A stretch of DNA of 64,000 nt from NCBI GenBank assembly GCA_030168575.1, contig CP115555.1, forward strand, positions 1,116,001 through 1,180,000, in the 5' to 3' direction. The translations under genes were made by a program, and so were the position numbers. Shown in pieces: positions 43,979-53,160 of this stretch (position 1 is its first letter; each line of letters begins with the position of its first letter). This stretch comes from Methanomassiliicoccales archaeon LGM-RCC1 (lineage in GTDB: Archaea; Thermoplasmatota; Thermoplasmata; Methanomassiliicoccales; Methanomethylophilaceae). The notes beneath the pieces are model-generated. The model was not told the origin of the DNA and searched no databases. It saw only the letters and a program-made list of their open reading frames with translations.

Positions 43979-44020
43979 CAGGGGGGAGATCCCCCTGCTT
44001 CCGAACCTTCAAGGTTCGGC
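43979..44020. terminator. two hairpins between convergent argD and receptor genes
   Basis: GCAGGGGG / CCCCCTGC (43979-43999) is followed by CCGAACCTT-C-AAGGTTCGG (44002-44020), the latter overlapping the stop of the opposing gene. TTT follows. Both orientations could use them. Confidence 0.6.
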
Positions 44021-46294
44021 TTTCAATATGTTTTGGATAAGCGTGTTTGCACGGTCAACCGTATAGTCTGTGCCTTCATATCTGAGGGTGAGGTCCAGAG
44101 AGCATCCGTCCACGTATCCGGCGAAGTAGATCATGTATCCACTCACCTGGGTGCGGTATATGATGTATCCGAAGGCATCCTCGAACCCATCGGTACTCAG
44201 GGGCAGGTACTCCGTACCCTCCGTGTCATAACCGGCGGTCTTGGTCCTGTATGTGGACACTGCCTTGCTGTACGTCGCGAACGAGTTGGCAGAGGAATCG
44301 ACCTCCACGTGGCGGTTTCCGTTCCCGCTGTCCGCAGCAGATATGTTGGCGTAGGTATCAGTTGCACCCTCGTCCAAGGTGTAAGGCGACCCCAGATACA
44401 CGTTGAGGGATGTGCTGTCGAACGTCTGCAGCCAGGTCTTCGCGGATTTACCGGACTCAGAGGGGTATGCCGCATCGATGAGCTTAGCGAGATCATCCAT
44501 TGAGAACGACGGCCTCTTGACGATCTGCAGATCCACAAGACAGTGGTCGATGTAGCCTACGAACTTCATGCTTCCGAGCACATGTTCAGCATCAGGATCG
44601 GAGTTCACATAGTATCCGTATCCCTCGGTCAGACCGTTGGAGAACGGAAGTTCGGTGCATATTCCGCTGGTCCTTGCAGTTGTACCTACCTTGGCCTCAT
44701 ACGTGGCCTTAATCTCTTCGTACTTGGACTTGGCATCTTCCACCAGAGTGTACTTGATGTAGTATGTGCTTCCATCCGACACCACTTTCGACTCCTGAGA
44801 GTTGTTGTCGGGAGACAGTACGTACGGAGTGTACGAATAGTCGATCATCGGGTCCAAGTTGGAGTTCAGATCGTCCTTCATGATATTCCAGAACCTGTTG
44901 GCCAACGCCACGGTGCTGATATTCGATTCGATCTCCTTTGGTTCATCCCCTCCTCTATAGTCAAGGTAGTCCTGGTAGGTGATCACGGTCATCATGTCCT
45001 GAACGACATTGAAATCATTGTCAGCGACGGTGTTGTCCAGATAGCTGAGGTACTTGTCGACCATTGTCTGGAAGTATTTGTTGGCATCACTCATCGACAC
45101 AATGTCCGGATAGAACATTGCTGCCGCATACATCACTCTGCAGGGCGTGGGCATGGACAGGTTCAGGAAGAACATGTTCTCGAACTCAGAGGATTTTCTG
45201 ATTATGTCCAGGTCGCTGTTCTCGAACAGATACGAGGGGCTGACCACTGTACAGTCGCAGGTGTGGCAGTTCATGATGTAATCGATCTTGCCATTGTAGA
45301 TGGTGATCGCCTCCACATCGTTGATCTGTGTCGATCCGTTGCCTTCCAGATTGGCGACGTCTATTCCGCCGGCCTGAGTTCCGATCTTGGTGTACTGCGA
45401 CTCGTGCTGAGAGATGTAACGCCACATGCACATGGCGATGAACTTGGTGCGGTCCTTCTCGTCGAGTTTTGCGACGGCCTCGGTTACATCTACGATGGCC
45501 TTACGAGAATCGTTAGCGTAATTCAGGGCTTTCTGGAAGTAGTCCGGACCCAATAGGAATCCAAGGAGCATGGTGGCATCGATGGAGTATAAGGGGTCTG
45601 TGCACCTGATGTAAATGACAGGGATTCCAGCAACCAGAAGATCGTCCTTGTAGTCTCCGAGGGCATTGTCATTGTACGCCAATATGGCGCCGATACCGCC
45701 CTGGTCGTGGTATTCGCTGTCCGTGTTCTTAATCGCCTCCCATTCAGAGGTCTTTATCTGCCTAGCGGTGGTACCGAGGCATTTGGACACACCGTTGTGA
45801 TCGGCCTTGTAGAATGTATTGGTGTAGGAACTCTTGTTGGCGATGTAGCCTATGACCTTCTCGTCGCCGTCAAAAGTGAACATCAGCTGGAGCATATCGG
45901 GATTGATGGTGACCAGATTCTTCAGAGGATAGTCAATCTCCAGGAGATGTATGTCGCCAGTATCGTATACGTATTGGTCGATGAAGCGTATCTTGGTACT
46001 CTCTCCCGCTATGAGTTTCTCCACGATCACAGCATCGTTCTCTGTGATGGCGTCATCCCCATCAGCGTCAGCGTAGGGGTATTTGGAGAGATCCCCGCCG
46101 ATGTTCTCCCTTATCAGCTCCACATCTTTCGAGTCTATGGTGTAGTCCTCGTTGGCGTTGCCGTAGATCGGCAGGCTGGTCATCTTCAGATTGTCGTAAT
46201 TGCCACCGCCCGCGCCTCCTAACGCAATCACAGCTGCCGCCGCTAGAACGATGACCGCCGCTACTGCGATTATGATTAGATTGTTCTTTTCCAT
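44009..46294 (-). CDS. surface receptor: anchor, dockerin-like repeats, FecB/BtuF-like domain (paralogue 1)
   Basis: A 761-residue protein. An N-terminal membrane anchor (about 6-30) is followed by two dockerin-type calcium loops (about 44-95; the second reads DADGDDAITENDA). A FecB/BtuF-type binding domain comes next (about 100-430: 'LVTINPDMLQLMF', 'LLGFLLGPDYFQKALNYANDSRKAI', 'GTQAGGIDVANLEG'). Then come two copies of a module of about 100 residues ending in 'GYxDxC'. A CHTCDC motif in the binding domain could bind metal. It starts 16 bases after the paralogue's stop with a GGAGA ribosome site, so the two are co-transcribed. I infer a chelate receptor for the FecCD system next door. Confidence 0.75.
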   Translation of the reverse strand: MEKNNLIIIAVAAVIVLAAAAVIALGGAGGGNYDNLKMTSLPIYGNANEDYTIDSKDVELIRENIGGDLSKYPYADADGDDAITENDAVIVEKLIAGESTKIRFIDQYVYDTGDIHLLEIDYPLKNLVTINPDMLQLMFTFDGDEKVIGYIANKSSYTNTFYKADHNGVSKCLGTTARQIKTSEWEAIKNTDSEYHDQGGIGAILAYNDNALGDYKDDLLVAGIPVIYIRCTDPLYSIDATMLLGFLLGPDYFQKALNYANDSRKAIVDVTEAVAKLDEKDRTKFIAMCMWRYISQHESQYTKIGTQAGGIDVANLEGNGSTQINDVEAITIYNGKIDYIMNCHTCDCTVVSPSYLFENSDLDIIRKSSEFENMFFLNLSMPTPCRVMYAAAMFYPDIVSMSDANKYFQTMVDKYLSYLDNTVADNDFNVVQDMMTVITYQDYLDYRGGDEPKEIESNISTVALANRFWNIMKDDLNSNLDPMIDYSYTPYVLSPDNNSQESKVVSDGSTYYIKYTLVEDAKSKYEEIKATYEAKVGTTARTSGICTELPFSNGLTEGYGYYVNSDPDAEHVLGSMKFVGYIDHCLVDLQIVKRPSFSMDDLAKLIDAAYPSESGKSAKTWLQTFDSTSLNVYLGSPYTLDEGATDTYANISAADSGNGNRHVEVDSSANSFATYSKAVSTYRTKTAGYDTEGTEYLPLSTDGFEDAFGYIIYRTQVSGYMIYFAGYVDGCSLDLTLRYEGTDYTVDRANTLIQNILKAEP

Positions 46295-46310
46295 TTCATT
46301 GTCTCCTAGA

Positions 46311-48575
46311 TCACGGGATGGTTTTCGCTACTGCGTTCACCAGTTCAGCAGTGTTCTGGTCGTTGAACTCGGGGTTTCCTCTGAGATACATGGTCACGAA
46401 GCAGCCGTCCTTGTATCCGACAAATTTCAGCATCCAGAATCCGCCCTGCCTGACGGCCTGTCCGTAGAATCCGTATCCGTCGTCAAAGCCTCCTTTCTCG
46501 ACTGCCATTGCGGTACCTCCCATATAGTCGGTGCCAATCTTGTCGATGTATTCCTGCTTCTCGTTGAGGAATTTGACCAGCGCATCAGAGCTGTTGTCGT
46601 AGGTGATGTAATAGTATTTTCCGGCGTCGTTCGCTGAACATCCTATCTCCGCCTTCACATCATTGCTGTTGGGAATGAGAGAGTACGGAGGATAGTCCAG
46701 TTTACTCAGAAGATTGAGGTCAAGCTTGTTGGCCGAATCCACAGCAGAGAAACTGCCGTCCACCGCCCACGCCGAAGTCACGATCTCCTGGAGGTCCACA
46801 TCCGAGAACGATGGTTTCTTCGCCAGATGGATGAGGATGAAACATTCCTTGTAGTATCCTGCGTAGTGCATGGATCCGATCTGTCCCTTCTCCGTGGTGT
46901 TCACGTAATAACCGAATCCGTCGGTGAGGCCGGTGACCACATCCATGGCGACATAGGTGCCTCCCATGGAGGACGATTGTCCAACCTTCTGCTCGAACTC
47001 TGCTTTCTTCGCCTCGAATACGGATTTCGCATCGTTGTACAGCTTAACGTTGACATAGTAGTTACCGGAGTTGGAGAGGACGTCAGCGGACTGGTCGTTC
47101 GAAGAATCTTTGAGATAGAAACCATCGCCGGAGAATCCTTCAAGGTCCATGGTGTCAAGGAAGTGCTGGGCTACGAGCTTCGCATTGATCTCTGAGGTGA
47201 CCTTTTCGCCAGGGTCTCCTCCGCCCTCGTTCACATAATCCTGGTAGGTGATTATGGTGAACATGTCCTTGGATACGTCGAAATATCCGTCGGAGACGGT
47301 CTCGTGAAGGTACGGCATGTACTTGTCGACAGTGCTTTGGAAGTATGCATCCGCATCAGCTTTCGACACCAGGTCCGGGTAGAACATTGATGCTACGTAC
47401 ATCACCCTGCAGGGAACCGGCATGGACATGTTGATCCAGAACATGTCCTTGTAGTGAGTGCTCTTGGCCATGTATCTGACACCGTTGTCCTCCCAGAGGG
47501 ATGTTGCGGTGACATTCGTACAGTCCTGGGTGGTGCAGTTGATCATGTAGTCTATCTTGTTGTTGTACTTCGTGATGGCTTCCACATCCTGAAGACGCTC
47601 CGAGGAGTTACCGGAGATACCGACGACAGACTTGCCCCCAGCTTGTATTCCGAGTTTGTTATACTGCGATTCATCCTGTGCTATGTAGCAGATCATGCAC
47701 AGGGAGATGAAGCGTTTCTTGTCCTTGTCAGCTATATTGCCGACTATGTCGCTGACTTCGCTTATGGTCTGCTTGCAATCGTTAGCGAAAACAGTTGCTT
47801 TGGCTGCATGCTCAGGACCCATGAGGGTTCCCAGCAGCAGAGCCGCATCAATCGAATAGATGGGGTCAGTGCATCTCAGGAATATGAGCGGGAATCCTGC
47901 CGCTATGATGTCATCCTCATAGTCTCCGAGAGCGGCTTTGCTGTGAACGACGATCGCTCCGATCTGCCTTCCTTCTTCCTGTAGCTCCACATCGAGGTTC
48001 TTGATGCCCACCCAGTCGGTGGAACCGATGTACCTTGCTGTCTCGCCTACCTGTTTGGAGAAGCCGTTATGGGTGACCTTGTAGAACTCGTTGGGGTAGT
48101 TGGCGATGTTGGCAACGTATCCCGCTACCACATCGTCAGCATCAATCATCATCGTCAGCAGCAGCATGTCCGCGTTCTGAGTGACGATATCCCTGAGCGG
48201 ATAGTCGATCTTAACGTAGTGGTATTTGCCGGCCACCAGATCGTACTGGTCGACGAACCATACCGGTGTGTTTTCCCCGTTGATGATCTTCTGTACGATT
48301 GCTATGTCCTTGCTGGTCACAGCGCCATCCCTATCGGCATCTGCGAAGGGATAGTCTTCCAAGGGGATGCTCTCGTCAATCATCTTCTGGATGAGGTCTA
48401 TGTCCTTCTGGTCTATGGTCGTGTCATCATTCGCATTCCCATAGATGGGGAGGGCAGTCTTGTCCAGAAGCTCTTCGCCGCCTTCTCCGTTTCCGTTCAG
48501 GATGAAAACGGCTGCTCCTGCTATTGCGACTACCGCTACCAAGGCAATTGCAATCATGGTCACGTTCGACTTCAT
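46311..48575 (-). CDS. surface receptor: anchor, dockerin-like repeats, FecB/BtuF-like domain (paralogue 2)
   Basis: A 754-residue paralogue with the same order: membrane anchor (about 7-27), dockerin-like repeats ('NANDDTTIDQKDIDLIQKM', 'DADRDGAVTSKDIAIVQK'), FecB/BtuF-like domain ('IVTQNADMLLLTMM', 'LLGTLMGPEHAAKATVFAND', 'GIQAGGKSVVGISG'), and two C-terminal modules with 'GFYKEC/GYKDGC'-type ends. The CHTCDC of paralogue 1 is CTTQDC here, so ligands may differ. ATG 48575 (MKSNVTMIAIAL) is preferred over an in-frame start 24 bases upstream; a minus-strand TATA-like CTTTTATAGG lies near 48606-48616. It is divergent from the permease genes. Confidence 0.75.
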   Translation of the reverse strand: MKSNVTMIAIALVAVVAIAGAAVFILNGNGEGGEELLDKTALPIYGNANDDTTIDQKDIDLIQKMIDESIPLEDYPFADADRDGAVTSKDIAIVQKIINGENTPVWFVDQYDLVAGKYHYVKIDYPLRDIVTQNADMLLLTMMIDADDVVAGYVANIANYPNEFYKVTHNGFSKQVGETARYIGSTDWVGIKNLDVELQEEGRQIGAIVVHSKAALGDYEDDIIAAGFPLIFLRCTDPIYSIDAALLLGTLMGPEHAAKATVFANDCKQTISEVSDIVGNIADKDKKRFISLCMICYIAQDESQYNKLGIQAGGKSVVGISGNSSERLQDVEAITKYNNKIDYMINCTTQDCTNVTATSLWEDNGVRYMAKSTHYKDMFWINMSMPVPCRVMYVASMFYPDLVSKADADAYFQSTVDKYMPYLHETVSDGYFDVSKDMFTIITYQDYVNEGGGDPGEKVTSEINAKLVAQHFLDTMDLEGFSGDGFYLKDSSNDQSADVLSNSGNYYVNVKLYNDAKSVFEAKKAEFEQKVGQSSSMGGTYVAMDVVTGLTDGFGYYVNTTEKGQIGSMHYAGYYKECFILIHLAKKPSFSDVDLQEIVTSAWAVDGSFSAVDSANKLDLNLLSKLDYPPYSLIPNSNDVKAEIGCSANDAGKYYYITYDNSSDALVKFLNEKQEYIDKIGTDYMGGTAMAVEKGGFDDGYGFYGQAVRQGGFWMLKFVGYKDGCFVTMYLRGNPEFNDQNTAELVNAVAKTIP

Positions 48576-48680
48576 GTTATCAATGCCAACTGTTATCATT
48601 TCTCCCTATAAAAGTTGGAAGTATTAACCAACAATATTGGGGGTCGGAGGTCGCTACCAATTAATACGAAAAAACAAATT

Positions 48681-48693
48681 GGATGTCTCATCC
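48681..48693 (+). promoter_or_regulatory. shared operator candidate, site A (GGATG-TCT-CATCC)
   Basis: Inverted repeat with 5-base arms and a 3-base centre, overlapping the start codon (48683) of the first permease gene, about 20 bases after a TATA-like AATTAATAC. The same repeat is found at 51724-51736 and 53187-53199. Confidence 0.5.
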
Positions 48694-49777
48694 GATGATC
48701 GAGGAGATAGAAAGAACCGGCAAGGAGCAGTACAAAAGCTCCATAGCCCGCAAATTCGCATTTCTAGCGATATGTCTAATAGCCCTCATCATCACAACCC
48801 TGGTCTCATGCTCTGTCGGTACAGGATACGAGTTCACGAAGACCGCGCAGGTCATTTGGGACCACATTACCGGTGTCACATACGAGATCAGGAGTCCGGA
48901 TTGGTGGGCCGATTACTACATTTTCAACAATGTCATGCCCGGAGTGATAATGGCATTGATCGCCGGTGCAGGTCTGGCCCTGGCCGGTACCGTCATGCAG
49001 AGCATGATGGAGAATCCTCTCGCAGATGCGTATACCACCGGAATCTCTTCGGGAGCATGTCTGGGAGCAGTAGTGGCCATAATCATGGGATTCTCCTACT
49101 CCACGGTCGTATCGGGGGCAGGAATAGTCATCAATGCATTCATCGGGTCGCTCATACCGGCGGTCATAGTGATATTGATGGTGCGTTTTGTTGGCAATTC
49201 GCCATCGACGATCATCCTCATAGGAACCGCATTGACATTCTTCTTCAACTCATTGGTAACGCTGGTGATGATCACCGCCAGCACAGAGAGTCTTCAGGAC
49301 GCATACATATGGCAGGTCGGAAGCGTCACCAACGCATCCTGGGCGGATATGCCCCTAATGTTGGTGATGACAGTGGCTTCCGCGATCCTCGTTCAGCTAT
49401 CGTCCAGTAAGCTCAATATCATGGCTCTGGGAGAGAAGAGCGCCAAGAGTCTCGGATTGGATGTGGTCCAGTTCAGGATGCTGTGCATCATCCTGACATC
49501 GGTGCTCATCGCATCGATCATCTCATTCACGGGAATCATAGGTTTCATCGGTCTCGTGGCGCCGCACATGACCCGTTATCTGGTCGGAGGGGACAACAAG
49601 TTCGTAGTTCCCGGATCCATCATACTGGGCTCCACGGTTTTGGTCATAGCAGACCTAGTATCGCGTCTTCTCACGGGATTCGGATACATCCCTCTGGGAG
49701 TCGTCATGTCGTTCATCGGCGCGCCCGTGTTCCTCTATCTCATCGTCAGACGTAAAGCTCAGAAGGAGGTGTTCTGA
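48683..49777 (+). CDS. FecCD-family ABC permease, subunit 1
   Basis: A 364-residue importer permease with about ten transmembrane helices, family motifs 'MPGVIMALIAGAGLALAGTVMQSMMENPLADAYTTGISSGACLGA' spanning residues about 87-130, and late 'GIIGFIGLVAPHMTRYLVGGDNKFVVPGS'. Family members import iron-siderophore complexes, haem or cobalamin. ATG 48683 coincides with a palindrome; ATG 48695 is also possible. The stop overlaps the next gene (TGATG). The N-terminal tail is longer than usual. Confidence 0.93.
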   Translation: MSHPMIEEIERTGKEQYKSSIARKFAFLAICLIALIITTLVSCSVGTGYEFTKTAQVIWDHITGVTYEIRSPDWWADYYIFNNVMPGVIMALIAGAGLALAGTVMQSMMENPLADAYTTGISSGACLGAVVAIIMGFSYSTVVSGAGIVINAFIGSLIPAVIVILMVRFVGNSPSTIILIGTALTFFFNSLVTLVMITASTESLQDAYIWQVGSVTNASWADMPLMLVMTVASAILVQLSSSKLNIMALGEKSAKSLGLDVVQFRMLCIILTSVLIASIISFTGIIGFIGLVAPHMTRYLVGGDNKFVVPGSIILGSTVLVIADLVSRLLTGFGYIPLGVVMSFIGAPVFLYLIVRRKAQKEVF

Positions 49778-50826
49778 TGGGCAAGGAGGATTACTACAGA
49801 TCGATCCGCAGGAAATGGTTCTTCATCATCCTCTGCGCGGTGCTGACCGTAGTTGCCATAGTCCTCTCTCTGTCGATAGGAATGTACGAGCTGAGCTTCG
49901 TGGATTGTTATACGATCCTTATCGATCACATCATGGGGAACATAACCGACCCGTACTCTGATGATATCGTCATCAACACGAGGCTGCCCATCTCATTGTT
50001 CGCGGTCATCGTAGGTGCCGTACTTGCGCTGGGCGGTGCGGTCATGCAGTCCATGCTCCGCAACCCTCTGGCCGACCCATATACCATGGGAGTCTCGTCA
50101 GGTGCACTGTTGGGTGCATCAATCGCGATCGTCCTCGGGAACACGATCATGCCGTTCTTCGGTGAACCATGGGTCAGGATAGTGATGGCATTCGGATTCT
50201 CGCTGATCCCGGTGGCGGTAATCCTGCTGTTTTCATTCAGGCGCAGGGTGACGGCCACAAAGATCATCCTTATCGGAATCGCGATGATGTACATCTTCTC
50301 AGCTATCGTCCAGTTGCTGATGATAACCGCTTCGGAGGAGACTCTATCCGAGATCTACTCCTGGAGGGTCGGAACCCTGGCGCTCACGGAATGGAGCACC
50401 ATCCCGATACCTCTAGCCATCAGTCTGGTCTGCGGTGCCATCATATTCTATCATCACAGACGCATCAATGTCATGATGGCCGGTGCCAATTCAGCTCACT
50501 CCATGGGAGTGGACCCCAGGAAGACGATCCTGGTGGAGATCACACTGGTATCATTGATGACCGCGGCAGTGGTCTGCTTCACAGGTACCATCGGTTTCGT
50601 TGGTCTGGTCGCCCCGCACATCGCGAGGCTGTTCGTCGGTTCCGAGACAAAACATCTTCTTCCCGCTTCGGCGGTATTCGGAGGACTATTCCTCCTGTTG
50701 GCGAACTGTATCGCCAGGGTTTCCGGGGAGTTCGCTCTGCCCGTGGGAGTCATCAGCGCCATCATCGGATGCCCGTTGTTCATAATCATACTGATCAGGA
50801 TGCGCAGGAAGAGCGCTTGGAGATGA
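49777..50826 (+). CDS. FecCD-family ABC permease, subunit 2
   Basis: A 349-residue permease with the same fold and motifs as its neighbour ('LGGAVMQSMLRNPLADPYTMGVSSGALLGA', 'GTIGFVGLVAPHIARLFVGSETKHLLPAS'). Two different permease subunits in tandem suggest a heterodimer like FecC-FecD rather than a BtuC-type homodimer. A ribosome site AAGGAGGT lies 6 bases before the start inside the end of subunit 1. Confidence 0.93.
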   Translation: MGKEDYYRSIRRKWFFIILCAVLTVVAIVLSLSIGMYELSFVDCYTILIDHIMGNITDPYSDDIVINTRLPISLFAVIVGAVLALGGAVMQSMLRNPLADPYTMGVSSGALLGASIAIVLGNTIMPFFGEPWVRIVMAFGFSLIPVAVILLFSFRRRVTATKIILIGIAMMYIFSAIVQLLMITASEETLSEIYSWRVGTLALTEWSTIPIPLAISLVCGAIIFYHHRRINVMMAGANSAHSMGVDPRKTILVEITLVSLMTAAVVCFTGTIGFVGLVAPHIARLFVGSETKHLLPASAVFGGLFLLLANCIARVSGEFALPVGVISAIIGCPLFIIILIRMRRKSAWR

Positions 50827-50832
50827 GGATAA

Positions 50833-51663
50833 ATGAGGTTAGTAATTGACGGAATAGAATTTGGGTACTCTAGCTTACCTGTGCTCAAGGACATAACGCT
50901 GGATGCAAACGGTCCGCAGCTCCTTTCGATCATAGGGCCCAACGGAGTCGGAAAGTCCACGCTGATCCACTGCATCAATAGGATCCTTTCCCCCAACAAG
51001 GGTACCGTGATGATCGACGGCGATCTTGTAAATGACATCTCGCTCAAGGATCTCGCAAAGAAAGTCGGTTACGTTCCCTACTCCGCCAACGATACCTTCC
51101 CTCTGTCTGTGGTGGACACTGTGCTCATGGGGCGCCATCCTCACGCCACCTACAAGTCAATGGATAAGGATCTGGACATAGTCTATGAGACCCTGAAGCT
51201 TCTGGACATAGAGGACCTCGCAATGAGGAACTTCGATGAGCTCTCCGCAGGACAGCACCAGAAGGTCATGCTCGCCAGGGGATTGGTCCAGGAGCCCGAG
51301 ATCCTGCTGTTGGACGAGCCGACCTCGAACCTGGACATCAAGCACCAGATGGAGGTCACACGTATCCTCAGGGATCTTTCCCAGAAGAAGGGCATCCTGG
51401 TCATAATGATCAGTCACGACCTCAACATCGCTGCCAAGTATTCCGATACGATGATCATGCTCTATGGCGGTTCCATATATGCGATAGGGACGCCTTCAGA
51501 AGTCATCACGAAGGAGAACATCAAGGCAGTCTATGACGTGGATTCAGAAATCATCGACAGTCACGGAAGGCCGCATCTCATAATGTTAGATGACGAGTTC
51601 GATGCCGAGTCGGCCTCTCTTGCTGCGGATACTTATGCCGTAAAGGAAAGAAGGGCAATCTGA
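50833..51663 (+). CDS. FecE/BtuD-type ABC importer ATPase
   Basis: A 276-residue ATPase with Walker A GPNGVGKST (about 35-43), signature LSAGQHQKV, Walker B 'ILLLDEPTSNLD' and switch 'ISHDLNIAAKYSD', in the form typical of iron-siderophore, haem and cobalamin importers. It starts 6 bases after the second permease. The C-terminal 40 residues after 'GTPSEVITKENIKAVYDVDSEI' extend slightly beyond the usual end. Confidence 0.94.
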   Translation: MRLVIDGIEFGYSSLPVLKDITLDANGPQLLSIIGPNGVGKSTLIHCINRILSPNKGTVMIDGDLVNDISLKDLAKKVGYVPYSANDTFPLSVVDTVLMGRHPHATYKSMDKDLDIVYETLKLLDIEDLAMRNFDELSAGQHQKVMLARGLVQEPEILLLDEPTSNLDIKHQMEVTRILRDLSQKKGILVIMISHDLNIAAKYSDTMIMLYGGSIYAIGTPSEVITKENIKAVYDVDSEIIDSHGRPHLIMLDDEFDAESASLAADTYAVKERRAI

Positions 51664-51678
51664 CACCCAGTACGAATT

Positions 51679-51706
51679 GGATGGTTAGTACAATTTAAGT
51701 ACATCC
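51679..51706 (+). promoter_or_regulatory. promoter region of the anchored protein gene with GGATG / CATCC half-sites
   Basis: GGATG (51679-51683) and CATCC (51702-51706) flank a TATA-like CAATTTAAG (51691-51699). They are the same half-sites as in the shared operator, with wider spacing. Confidence 0.4.
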
Positions 51707-51723
51707 ATCTCACTTCACCGGAT

Positions 51724-51736
51724 GGATATCTTATCC
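51724..51736 (+). promoter_or_regulatory. shared operator candidate, site B (GGATA-TCT-TATCC)
   Basis: Inverted repeat with 5-base arms and the same TCT centre as site A, located around or just after the expected transcription start and 12 bases before ATG 51748. Confidence 0.5.
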
Positions 51737-51747
51737 AAGAGGATATT

Positions 51748-52494
51748 ATGGAAAAGAAGACAATGACAATCGTCGCTGTCGTTGCTGTTGTGATCATCAT
51801 CGCAGCAGCAGCTTGCGTCTTCCTCCTCCCTGCAAAGAACTACAACGCGCAGGAACTGGCAGAGAAGTTCGTCAAGGACTACGACGGAGAGTTCGGAGAT
51901 TTCGAAGTCGCAATCGGCGGAACAAAAGACCTTGCAATTCTGTCCTACACAACCAACACAGTGATCCCTTCAACCGGAGAAGTTCTGGACAAGACCAGGT
52001 CGAGCAACATCAAAGTCATCCACTTCGAGACCAAAGATGCAGCTACCGCAGCATACGACAACTACATCAAAATTCATGACGCACCTTACGAGTCCACCAA
52101 CGGATCCAGCGGAGAAACCATCTATTCCCAGCTGACTCCTGTCGGAATGGCAAAGGATTTCGTCACAGTTCTCAACGGAACGAAGAACATCGAGCTCCAC
52201 TCGATCGACGGAGTTTCTGTAAAGAACGTCAAGGCCAGCGATTACGGATGCGATCAGATCTACGTCCTCTACGGAGCGTACCACCCTACAAAGACAACCA
52301 TTGCAGCATTCACATTGGCAATGGGAGTCATCCAGGATGGAAACAACCTGATCGTCTTCAACCAGTCTACTTCTGACAAGTTCGGACTGTACCTGAACAA
52401 AGCGATTTACGACGAGGATATCGTTGGAATCCTTTCTAAGATCACACAGGCTGACTACGAGAAGGAACTGACAAAGCTCATCAAGGCTTTCTGA
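51748..52494 (+). CDS. membrane-anchored outer-face protein of the uptake locus
   Basis: A 248-residue protein of unknown function. It has an N-terminal anchor (about 5-29) much like those of the two receptors and of the flavodoxin, then about 215 residues outside. The segment 'KVIHFETKDAATAAYDNYI' and a later strand-rich part with 'YGCDQIYVLYGAY' loosely recall the C-terminal modules of the receptors ('xDAxxxYxxxxxxY ... GYxDxC'). It could be a stand-alone relative, which I cannot confirm by eye. A shared operator sits in its leader. A terminator follows. Confidence 0.65.
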   Translation: MEKKTMTIVAVVAVVIIIAAAACVFLLPAKNYNAQELAEKFVKDYDGEFGDFEVAIGGTKDLAILSYTTNTVIPSTGEVLDKTRSSNIKVIHFETKDAATAAYDNYIKIHDAPYESTNGSSGETIYSQLTPVGMAKDFVTVLNGTKNIELHSIDGVSVKNVKASDYGCDQIYVLYGAYHPTKTTIAAFTLAMGVIQDGNNLIVFNQSTSDKFGLYLNKAIYDEDIVGILSKITQADYEKELTKLIKAF

Positions 52495-52506
52495 TAAACT
52501 AAAAAC

Positions 52507-52526
52507 GTAGGGGGTTATCCCCCTAC
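52507..52526. terminator. bidirectional terminator
   Basis: Perfect 8-bp stem GTAGGGGG-TTAT-CCCCCTAC, 12 bases after the plus-strand stop and 4 bases before the minus-strand flavodoxin stop. A-rich before it and T-rich after it, so usable from both sides. Confidence 0.8.
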
Positions 52527-52530
52527 TAAT

Positions 52531-53160
52531 TTATTGTTTCTTTTCAAAACCAAGCGAATCCAGCCAATTGTAGATTTCCGATTCGCTGAAACCAGTTGAG
52601 AAGCAGGCCCCCTTCAGCATGTTGCAGTCGGGTTCCGCATTCCATACGCTCAACCTGGCGGCAGCAACTCCTGCAGACCATGAAGTTGCGAAGATTGCTA
52701 CGTTCTTTCCACTCAGATCGTAAATGTCGAGGAAAGTGTCGATGATGTTAGGTTCTTGGTGATACCAGATTGGGAATCCTAAAACGATCGTGGAATAGCT
52801 GGAAAGGTCTATCGGGGCCCCCTCGATCGCAGGTCTTATCGAATGATCGGCATGTTCATTGTTTACACGGCTGCCCTCAACATCACGCTGGAGGTCTTCA
52901 TTAGTATACGGCACCTCGGGGATTATACGGTATGCATCTGCATTGAGATAATCCATGATCTTCTCTGCCACTCCAGCTGTTGTTTCAGTCGCTGAGAAGT
53001 AGATCACAATGACCTTCTCATTGAGGTCCGGGAATTCCTTTTCCGGTTCCGGATCGGGATCCTTCTGTTCAGAGCCCCACGGGTTCAGAATCAGCAAAGC
53101 TCCTACGGATACCATTGCGATGACCGCAATGGCTACGATAGCTATCGTTTTGTTATCCAT
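52531..53160 (-). CDS. membrane-anchored flavodoxin predicted to face outside
   Basis: A 209-residue protein: N-terminal anchor (about 5-26, with Lys on the inner side and acidic residues after it), an acidic linker ('KDPDPEPEKE'), then a flavodoxin fold with the FMN phosphate loop 'VIYFSATETTAGVAEKI', 'STIVLGFPIWYHQEP' and 'NVAIFATSWSAG'. Flavodoxins carry electrons and are normally cytoplasmic; here topology puts the FMN outside. Convergent with the uptake genes and sharing their operator (site C), it may help release metal from a chelate by reduction. The stop is TAA. Confidence 0.8.
   Translation of the reverse strand: MDNKTIAIVAIAVIAMVSVGALLILNPWGSEQKDPDPEPEKEFPDLNEKVIVIYFSATETTAGVAEKIMDYLNADAYRIIPEVPYTNEDLQRDVEGSRVNNEHADHSIRPAIEGAPIDLSSYSTIVLGFPIWYHQEPNIIDTFLDIYDLSGKNVAIFATSWSAGVAAARLSVWNAEPDCNMLKGACFSTGFSESEIYNWLDSLGFEKKQ

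Follow-up and report, generated by a model that had tools for sequence, protein, structure and literature searches.

A type II ABC importer locus with paired dockerin-bearing receptors in a rumen Methanomethylophilaceae methanogen, and its association with CobN-family genes in relatives

Results and discussion

The locus lies in a 64,000-nucleotide stretch, referred to here as the window, of the genome of Methanomassiliicoccales archaeon LGM-RCC1. This 1.66-Mb archaeal genome (G000) is a single contig and its host is a rumen Methanomethylophilaceae methanogen. At the receptor, 99% identity was found with 'Thermoplasmata archaeon SIG9', and most further matches were to rumen and gut Methanomethylophilaceae. 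The locus is flanked by arg genes on one side and by an ACT-domain gene on the other, and all of the open reading frames claimed in a first-pass annotation of the DNA were present (Table 1).

Table 1. Genes and other features of the locus, in window coordinates
Feature	Position	Strand	Description
Receptor 1, 761 aa	44009..46294	-	N-terminal anchor, dockerin-like loops, class III binding domain, two C-terminal modules
Receptor 1, domain borders			Dockerin-like Ca2+ loops aa 47-95; binding domain ~aa 103-450; two alpha/beta modules ~aa 456-761
Receptor 2, 754 aa from likely start	46311..48575	-	Architecture as receptor 1
Divergent promoter region, 107 bp	48576..48682	.	Separates receptor operon from importer operon
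FecCD-family permease 1	48683..49777	+	PF01032, E 2.6e-76
FecCD-family permease 2	49777..50826	+	PF01032, E 1e-81; 1-base overlap with permease 1
FecE/BtuD-type ATPase	50833..51663	+	PF00005, E 1.3e-29
Anchored protein of unknown family, 248 aa	51748..52494	+	Downstream of FecE-type ATPase
Anchored Flavodoxin_4 protein, 209 aa	52531..53160	-	PF12682, E 8.7e-37

The region between the two operons contains a TATA-like sequence, TATAAAA, that is common to the orthologous locus L067. When the divergent regions of five genomes were inspected by eye for a shared operator, the TATA-like stretch was all that was seen, and a search of the window for known RNA elements (e.g. a cobalamin riboswitch) gave none. 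The reading frame of receptor 2 opens at 48599, and the start given in Table 1 is the most likely one because the L067 orthologue aligns from that methionine. The 248-aa anchored protein is probably co-transcribed with the importer.

The sequence of the ATPase contains the motifs GPNGVGKST, LSAGQ, LLLDEPTSNLD and SHD, and it was also matched by haem/FecE-type NCBIfam models. The permeases gave high scores with BtuC-type NCBIfam models. With two FecCD permeases, a FecE/BtuD-type ATPase and a class III binding protein, the locus is well supported as a type II (BtuCD/FecCD-class) ABC importer. The first-pass description of surface-anchored FecB/BtuF-like receptors accompanied by a FecCD-FecE importer is therefore supported, both by these family matches and by the conservation of the unit described below. 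The system is like BtuCDF, FecBCDE and FhuBCD in its permeases, ATPase and binding-protein fold, but differs from them in having two anchored receptors per pump, a dockerin-like stalk, two extra C-terminal modules and a divergent gene order.

The two receptors are paralogues of approximately 760 residues each, with about 42% identity. The Dockerin_1 model matched receptor 2 with 25.1 bits, above the Pfam cut-off of 22.9, and receptor 1 with 18.0 bits, just under it; 26 of 31 homologous receptors matched at E <= 0.01, and both Ca2+-loop repeats of the dockerin are visible. In a Pfam search with the window's two receptors the binding domain was not recognised. When a profile of the 31 homologues was compared with the PDB, matches to iron-chelate binding proteins and to dockerins were obtained. 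An AlphaFold2 model of receptor 2 (mean pLDDT 88) was matched by Foldseek to YiuA, CeuE, haem substrate-binding proteins (SBPs) and BtuF, with E values down to 1.6e-12. The FecB/BtuF-like domain read from the sequence in the first pass was thus borne out by both approaches, and the tandem C-terminal modules that it had also described proved to be two copies of one alpha/beta module. These modules were modelled confidently (pLDDT 89); comparison with the PDB gave no match at E <= 0.001, only repeated weak PsbP/DcrB-like matches.

The ten long receptors are without variation at R234, T236, D237, N346, C347, T349, D351, C389 and R390. Several of these residues sit just past predicted strand ends in the receptor model, which would fit a ligand pocket. 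C347 is found in none of the 21 short paralogues and C389 in 2 of them, and the invariant set suggests that the long receptors have a ligand other than that of the short paralogues.

As to the nature of this ligand, the proteins that the receptors match best in sequence and structure (YiuA, FeuA, CeuE and 4hn9) bind iron chelates, FecCD-FecE is the siderophore-importer class, and the arginine-rich conserved set (R234, R390) would suit carboxylate or catecholate chelates. The locus could then be an ordinary importer of Fe(III)-siderophores or of some other non-tetrapyrrole iron chelate, and the CobN genes found near it in relatives (see below) would reflect incidental clustering of metal-homeostasis genes. 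However, haem SBPs and BtuF also match the receptor model at E values of about 1e-8 to 1e-7, although the top matches are iron-chelate SBPs, and the conserved cysteines count against this explanation, as cysteines are unusual in siderophore pockets. The number and position of CobN genes, moreover, follow this importer type across genomes, and a siderophore importer is accordingly judged unlikely. The modelled receptor structure alone cannot separate iron-siderophore from haem or cobalamin binding.

The dockerin had been taken in the first pass as a possible means of organising the receptors on the surface through cohesins. No cohesin (PF00963) was found in the window genome, and cohesins above the cut-off were seen in just 3 of 41 genomes (G001:C10:71148-71441, G018:C17:8726-9031 and G006:C69:20981-21349), in which partners for dockerin receptors may exist. 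Cellulosome-like docking is therefore unsupported here, and the dockerin is most likely a Ca2+-stiffened stalk. Ig-like Big_2 domains can also separate the anchor from the receptor or module domains (L068:3976-6852 and L068:7194-8738), which suggests a stalk function for both the dockerin and the Ig-like parts. A fused receptor that carries two binding domains was also observed at L068. Cellulosomal type I dockerins (PF00404) share the duplicated Ca2+-binding loop with these receptors, as the profile and PDB matches indicate, but here the dockerin adjoins a membrane anchor, and no cohesin partner was found in the genome. ABC-transporter binding proteins carrying dockerins have already been reported in ANME archaea (PMC9012536). 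Those proteins are of the NikA/OppA and TroA types and occur in genomes with multi-cohesin scaffoldin-like proteins (PMC9012536), whereas the window receptors are of the FecB/BtuF type.

The flavodoxin fold was recognised from PF12682 together with the phosphate loop S-x-T-x-x-T, present as YFSATETT. The anchor and charge pattern of its sequence suggest that the flavodoxin faces outside. It lies beside the locus in the window species (also in the same-species genome G103) and in G003 only, and anchored flavodoxins are encoded elsewhere in other genomes. In G029, from another family of the order, an exported Flavodoxin_4 is fused to an aldo/keto reductase domain (L089:6547-8025). A flavodoxin-family protein, HmuF, is known from a haem-uptake operon in Fusobacterium (PMC10404700). 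In both cases a gene of the flavodoxin family neighbours genes for the uptake of haem or a chelate, but here no radical-SAM HmuW was seen and the protein is a Flavodoxin_4 with an N-terminal anchor.

The first-pass annotation had combined these elements into one unit, a dockerin-cohesin surface array in which an external flavodoxin would release the metal reductively before import. The probable outside position of the anchored flavodoxin, its retention by the locus in two species, its position in G003 next to a co-oriented CobN, the HmuF precedent and the cohesins of G001, G006 and G018 are all in keeping with such an arrangement. However, only 2 of 6 species have the flavodoxin here, so that it does not belong to the constant core of the unit; no cohesin was found in the window genome, and the locus lacks an external electron donor. 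Such an array with reductive release is very improbable.

The receptor pair is divergent from a permease-permease-FecE group in six species (G000, G003, G012, G001, G006 and G106). Conservation of the neighbourhood, which had been proposed as a check on the first-pass unit, thus holds for the receptors and importer in all six and fails for the flavodoxin. Orthologues of the 248-aa anchored protein, with one to three tandem modules, follow FecE in 5 of the 6 species (G003, G012, G001, G106 and the window species); in G006 a related module sits on another contig. Homology of this small protein to the receptor C-terminal modules was considered and rejected at the sequence level, as profile comparison gave a probability of 0.2% with a shallow profile. 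A sodium/calcium exchanger gene adjoins receptor 1 in two relatives (L067:4613-5566 and L069:15200-16153) and is absent from this place in the window.

The receptors, the small anchored protein and the flavodoxin have the same style of N-terminal anchor. Their identity to the G003 orthologues is 53-63%, compared with 83-91% for the pump and 87-96% for cytoplasmic neighbours. This contrast is compatible with a surface position, though only suggestive of one.

Some nine receptors with a dockerin are encoded in the window genome, and each one examined adjoins FecCD-FecE genes. The same layout of dockerin-SBP with FecCD-FecE is usual in the genus and rare outside it. Together with the ANME reports (PMC9012536), this removes the novelty that the first pass had seen in the unit. 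No published dockerin-SBPs or CobN clusters in Methanomassiliicoccales were found in the literature searched, which excludes most subscription journals. What is distinctive of the window locus is the long form, a tandem receptor pair with C-terminal modules. Relatives of the C-terminal module also adjoin FecCD at L207, L208, L209 and L211. At L208 an array of module copies (L208:5430-7289, in a 1897-aa frame) stands beside FecCD, FecE and CobN.

The main interest of the locus is its association in relatives with CobN, a finding that goes beyond the first-pass annotation. In two relatives, G003 and G012, the locus has a CobN-family gene (PF02514) as its neighbour; in G003 this gene is directly upstream of the flavodoxin and on the same strand. 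Two of the loci with C-terminal-module relatives (L208 and L209) hold CobN as well. No CobN is present at this place in the window genome, whose four CobNs fall in other clades; the link was therefore out of sight of the first pass, and a tetrapyrrole reading here rests on orthology. Relatives have up to 13 copies. Eight genomes together contain 34 CobN genes, of which 18 have a FecCD gene no more than 5 kb away, where random gene placement would give at most 6.2 (P ~5e-6; the genomes are not independent). All 23 CobN-bearing genomes among the 41 have the receptors, and the copy numbers of the two are correlated across the 41 genomes (rho 0.92) and within the genus (rho 0.83), in counts that ignore shared ancestry. 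The statistical link between importer and CobN is thus genus-wide.

Elsewhere in the window genome, a single region (G000:C1:25000-57500; L135, L083) holds three CobN genes, a ChlI/ChlD pair, two dockerin-SBP importers and several other ABC ATPases. Some CobN genes contain one or two in-frame TAGs (L083:10716-14399, L067:14860-18633 and L154:6918-10652). The order is known for pyrrolysine read-through. A conserved pyrrolysine site was rejected, as the positions differ between copies, and the TAGs reflect either read-through or decay.

The CobNs at the locus in G003 and G012 (L067 and L069) keep the superfamily motif HxGTHG and lack both the LSLDHxxEFMGG motif of HmuS and an N-terminal anchor. 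The nearest PDB relative of the G012 protein is CobN rather than the haem de-chelatase HmuS, and it scored 885 bits against a cobaltochelatase equivalog cut-off of 822. The window genome has ChlI/ChlD-type ATPase genes at three sites, with one pair next to a CobN, which makes metal insertion possible for that copy. Given the likeness to CobN rather than HmuS, the missing anchor and motif and the presence of ChlI/ChlD, the metal could equally well be inserted or removed.

The equivalog score and the ChlI/ChlD pairs, like the BtuC-type scores of the permeases, would suit an importer for salvage of corrinoids (B12 family), a functional analogue of BtuCDF, with CobN and ChlI/ChlD re-metallating or remodelling the corrinoids. 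The reliance of methyl-reducing methanogens on corrinoid proteins also counts in its favour. However, the corrin-pathway marker CbiG was present in all 13 genomes tested, which implies less need for salvage, the largest CobN complements seem excessive for corrinoid remodelling, and corrinoid is inseparable from haem on present data. Corrinoid salvage as such is considered rather unlikely; being a narrower version of the main reading set out below, it shares part of the confidence placed in that reading.

A natural control is provided by G014, a 99% complete genome of the same genus, which has CbiG, no CobN and two weak dockerin-SBP matches only. It is therefore unlikely that CobN provides the cobalt chelatase for making corrins de novo. 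CobN is dispensable for corrins there, favouring a role in salvage or metal release.

The Hmu systems of Bacteroides and Porphyromonas, with HmuS/BtuS (PMC12583661, PMC6460266), have in common with the archaeal loci a link between the CobN superfamily and uptake, the HxGTHG motif and an anaerobic gut habitat. They differ in that HmuS of the Bacteroidota hmu operon is membrane-anchored and larger (PMC12583661, PMC6460266), unlike the archaeal CobNs, which are moreover missing from this locus in the window genome.

Conclusions

The reading that we favour, if by a modest degree, is an importer of metallo-tetrapyrroles or metal chelates that feeds a cytoplasmic CobN-type chelatase or de-chelatase. 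Two homologous receptors would be attached to the outside of the membrane, each through its N-terminal helix and a dockerin-like stalk loaded with Ca2+, and would capture a metal chelate in their class III fold. This chelate would most likely be a metallo-tetrapyrrole, such as haem, a corrinoid or a related compound. Capture or retention of the ligand would be aided by the added C-terminal modules and by the 248-aa anchored protein. One shared FecCD2-FecE2 pump would use ATP hydrolysis to import it. In the cytoplasm, a protein of the CobN family, whose gene is at the locus in two relatives and elsewhere in the window genome, would remove or exchange the metal. The analysis demonstrates the gene content, the folds, the conservation and the statistical link with CobN across the genus, from which the outside location, the shared pump, the class of substrate, the CobN step with its direction and any part played by the flavodoxin are inferred. 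The CobN linkage lends indirect support to the first-pass suggestion of 'iron, haem or a corrinoid'; the ligand may be haem, a corrinoid or another metal chelate.

A wider proposal, which we make tentatively and regard as somewhat improbable, is that gut Methanomethylophilaceae possess an expanded archaeal counterpart of Hmu. Many dockerin-stalked surface receptors with FecCD-FecE would import varied metallo-tetrapyrroles (haem, corrinoids and perhaps chlorophyll products), from which dedicated CobN paralogues in the cytoplasm would strip the metals to supply iron, cobalt or nickel. What archaea do with their numerous HmuS/CobN/ChlH homologues has been described as unclear, as complete hmu operons are lacking in them (PMC12583661). 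If true, the proposal would explain this use, and the genus-wide occurrence of CobN paralogues with dockerin-stalked FecCD-FecE importers offers a testable answer to that question. These methanogens would then also be rivals of gut bacteria for metals bound to haem or corrinoids.
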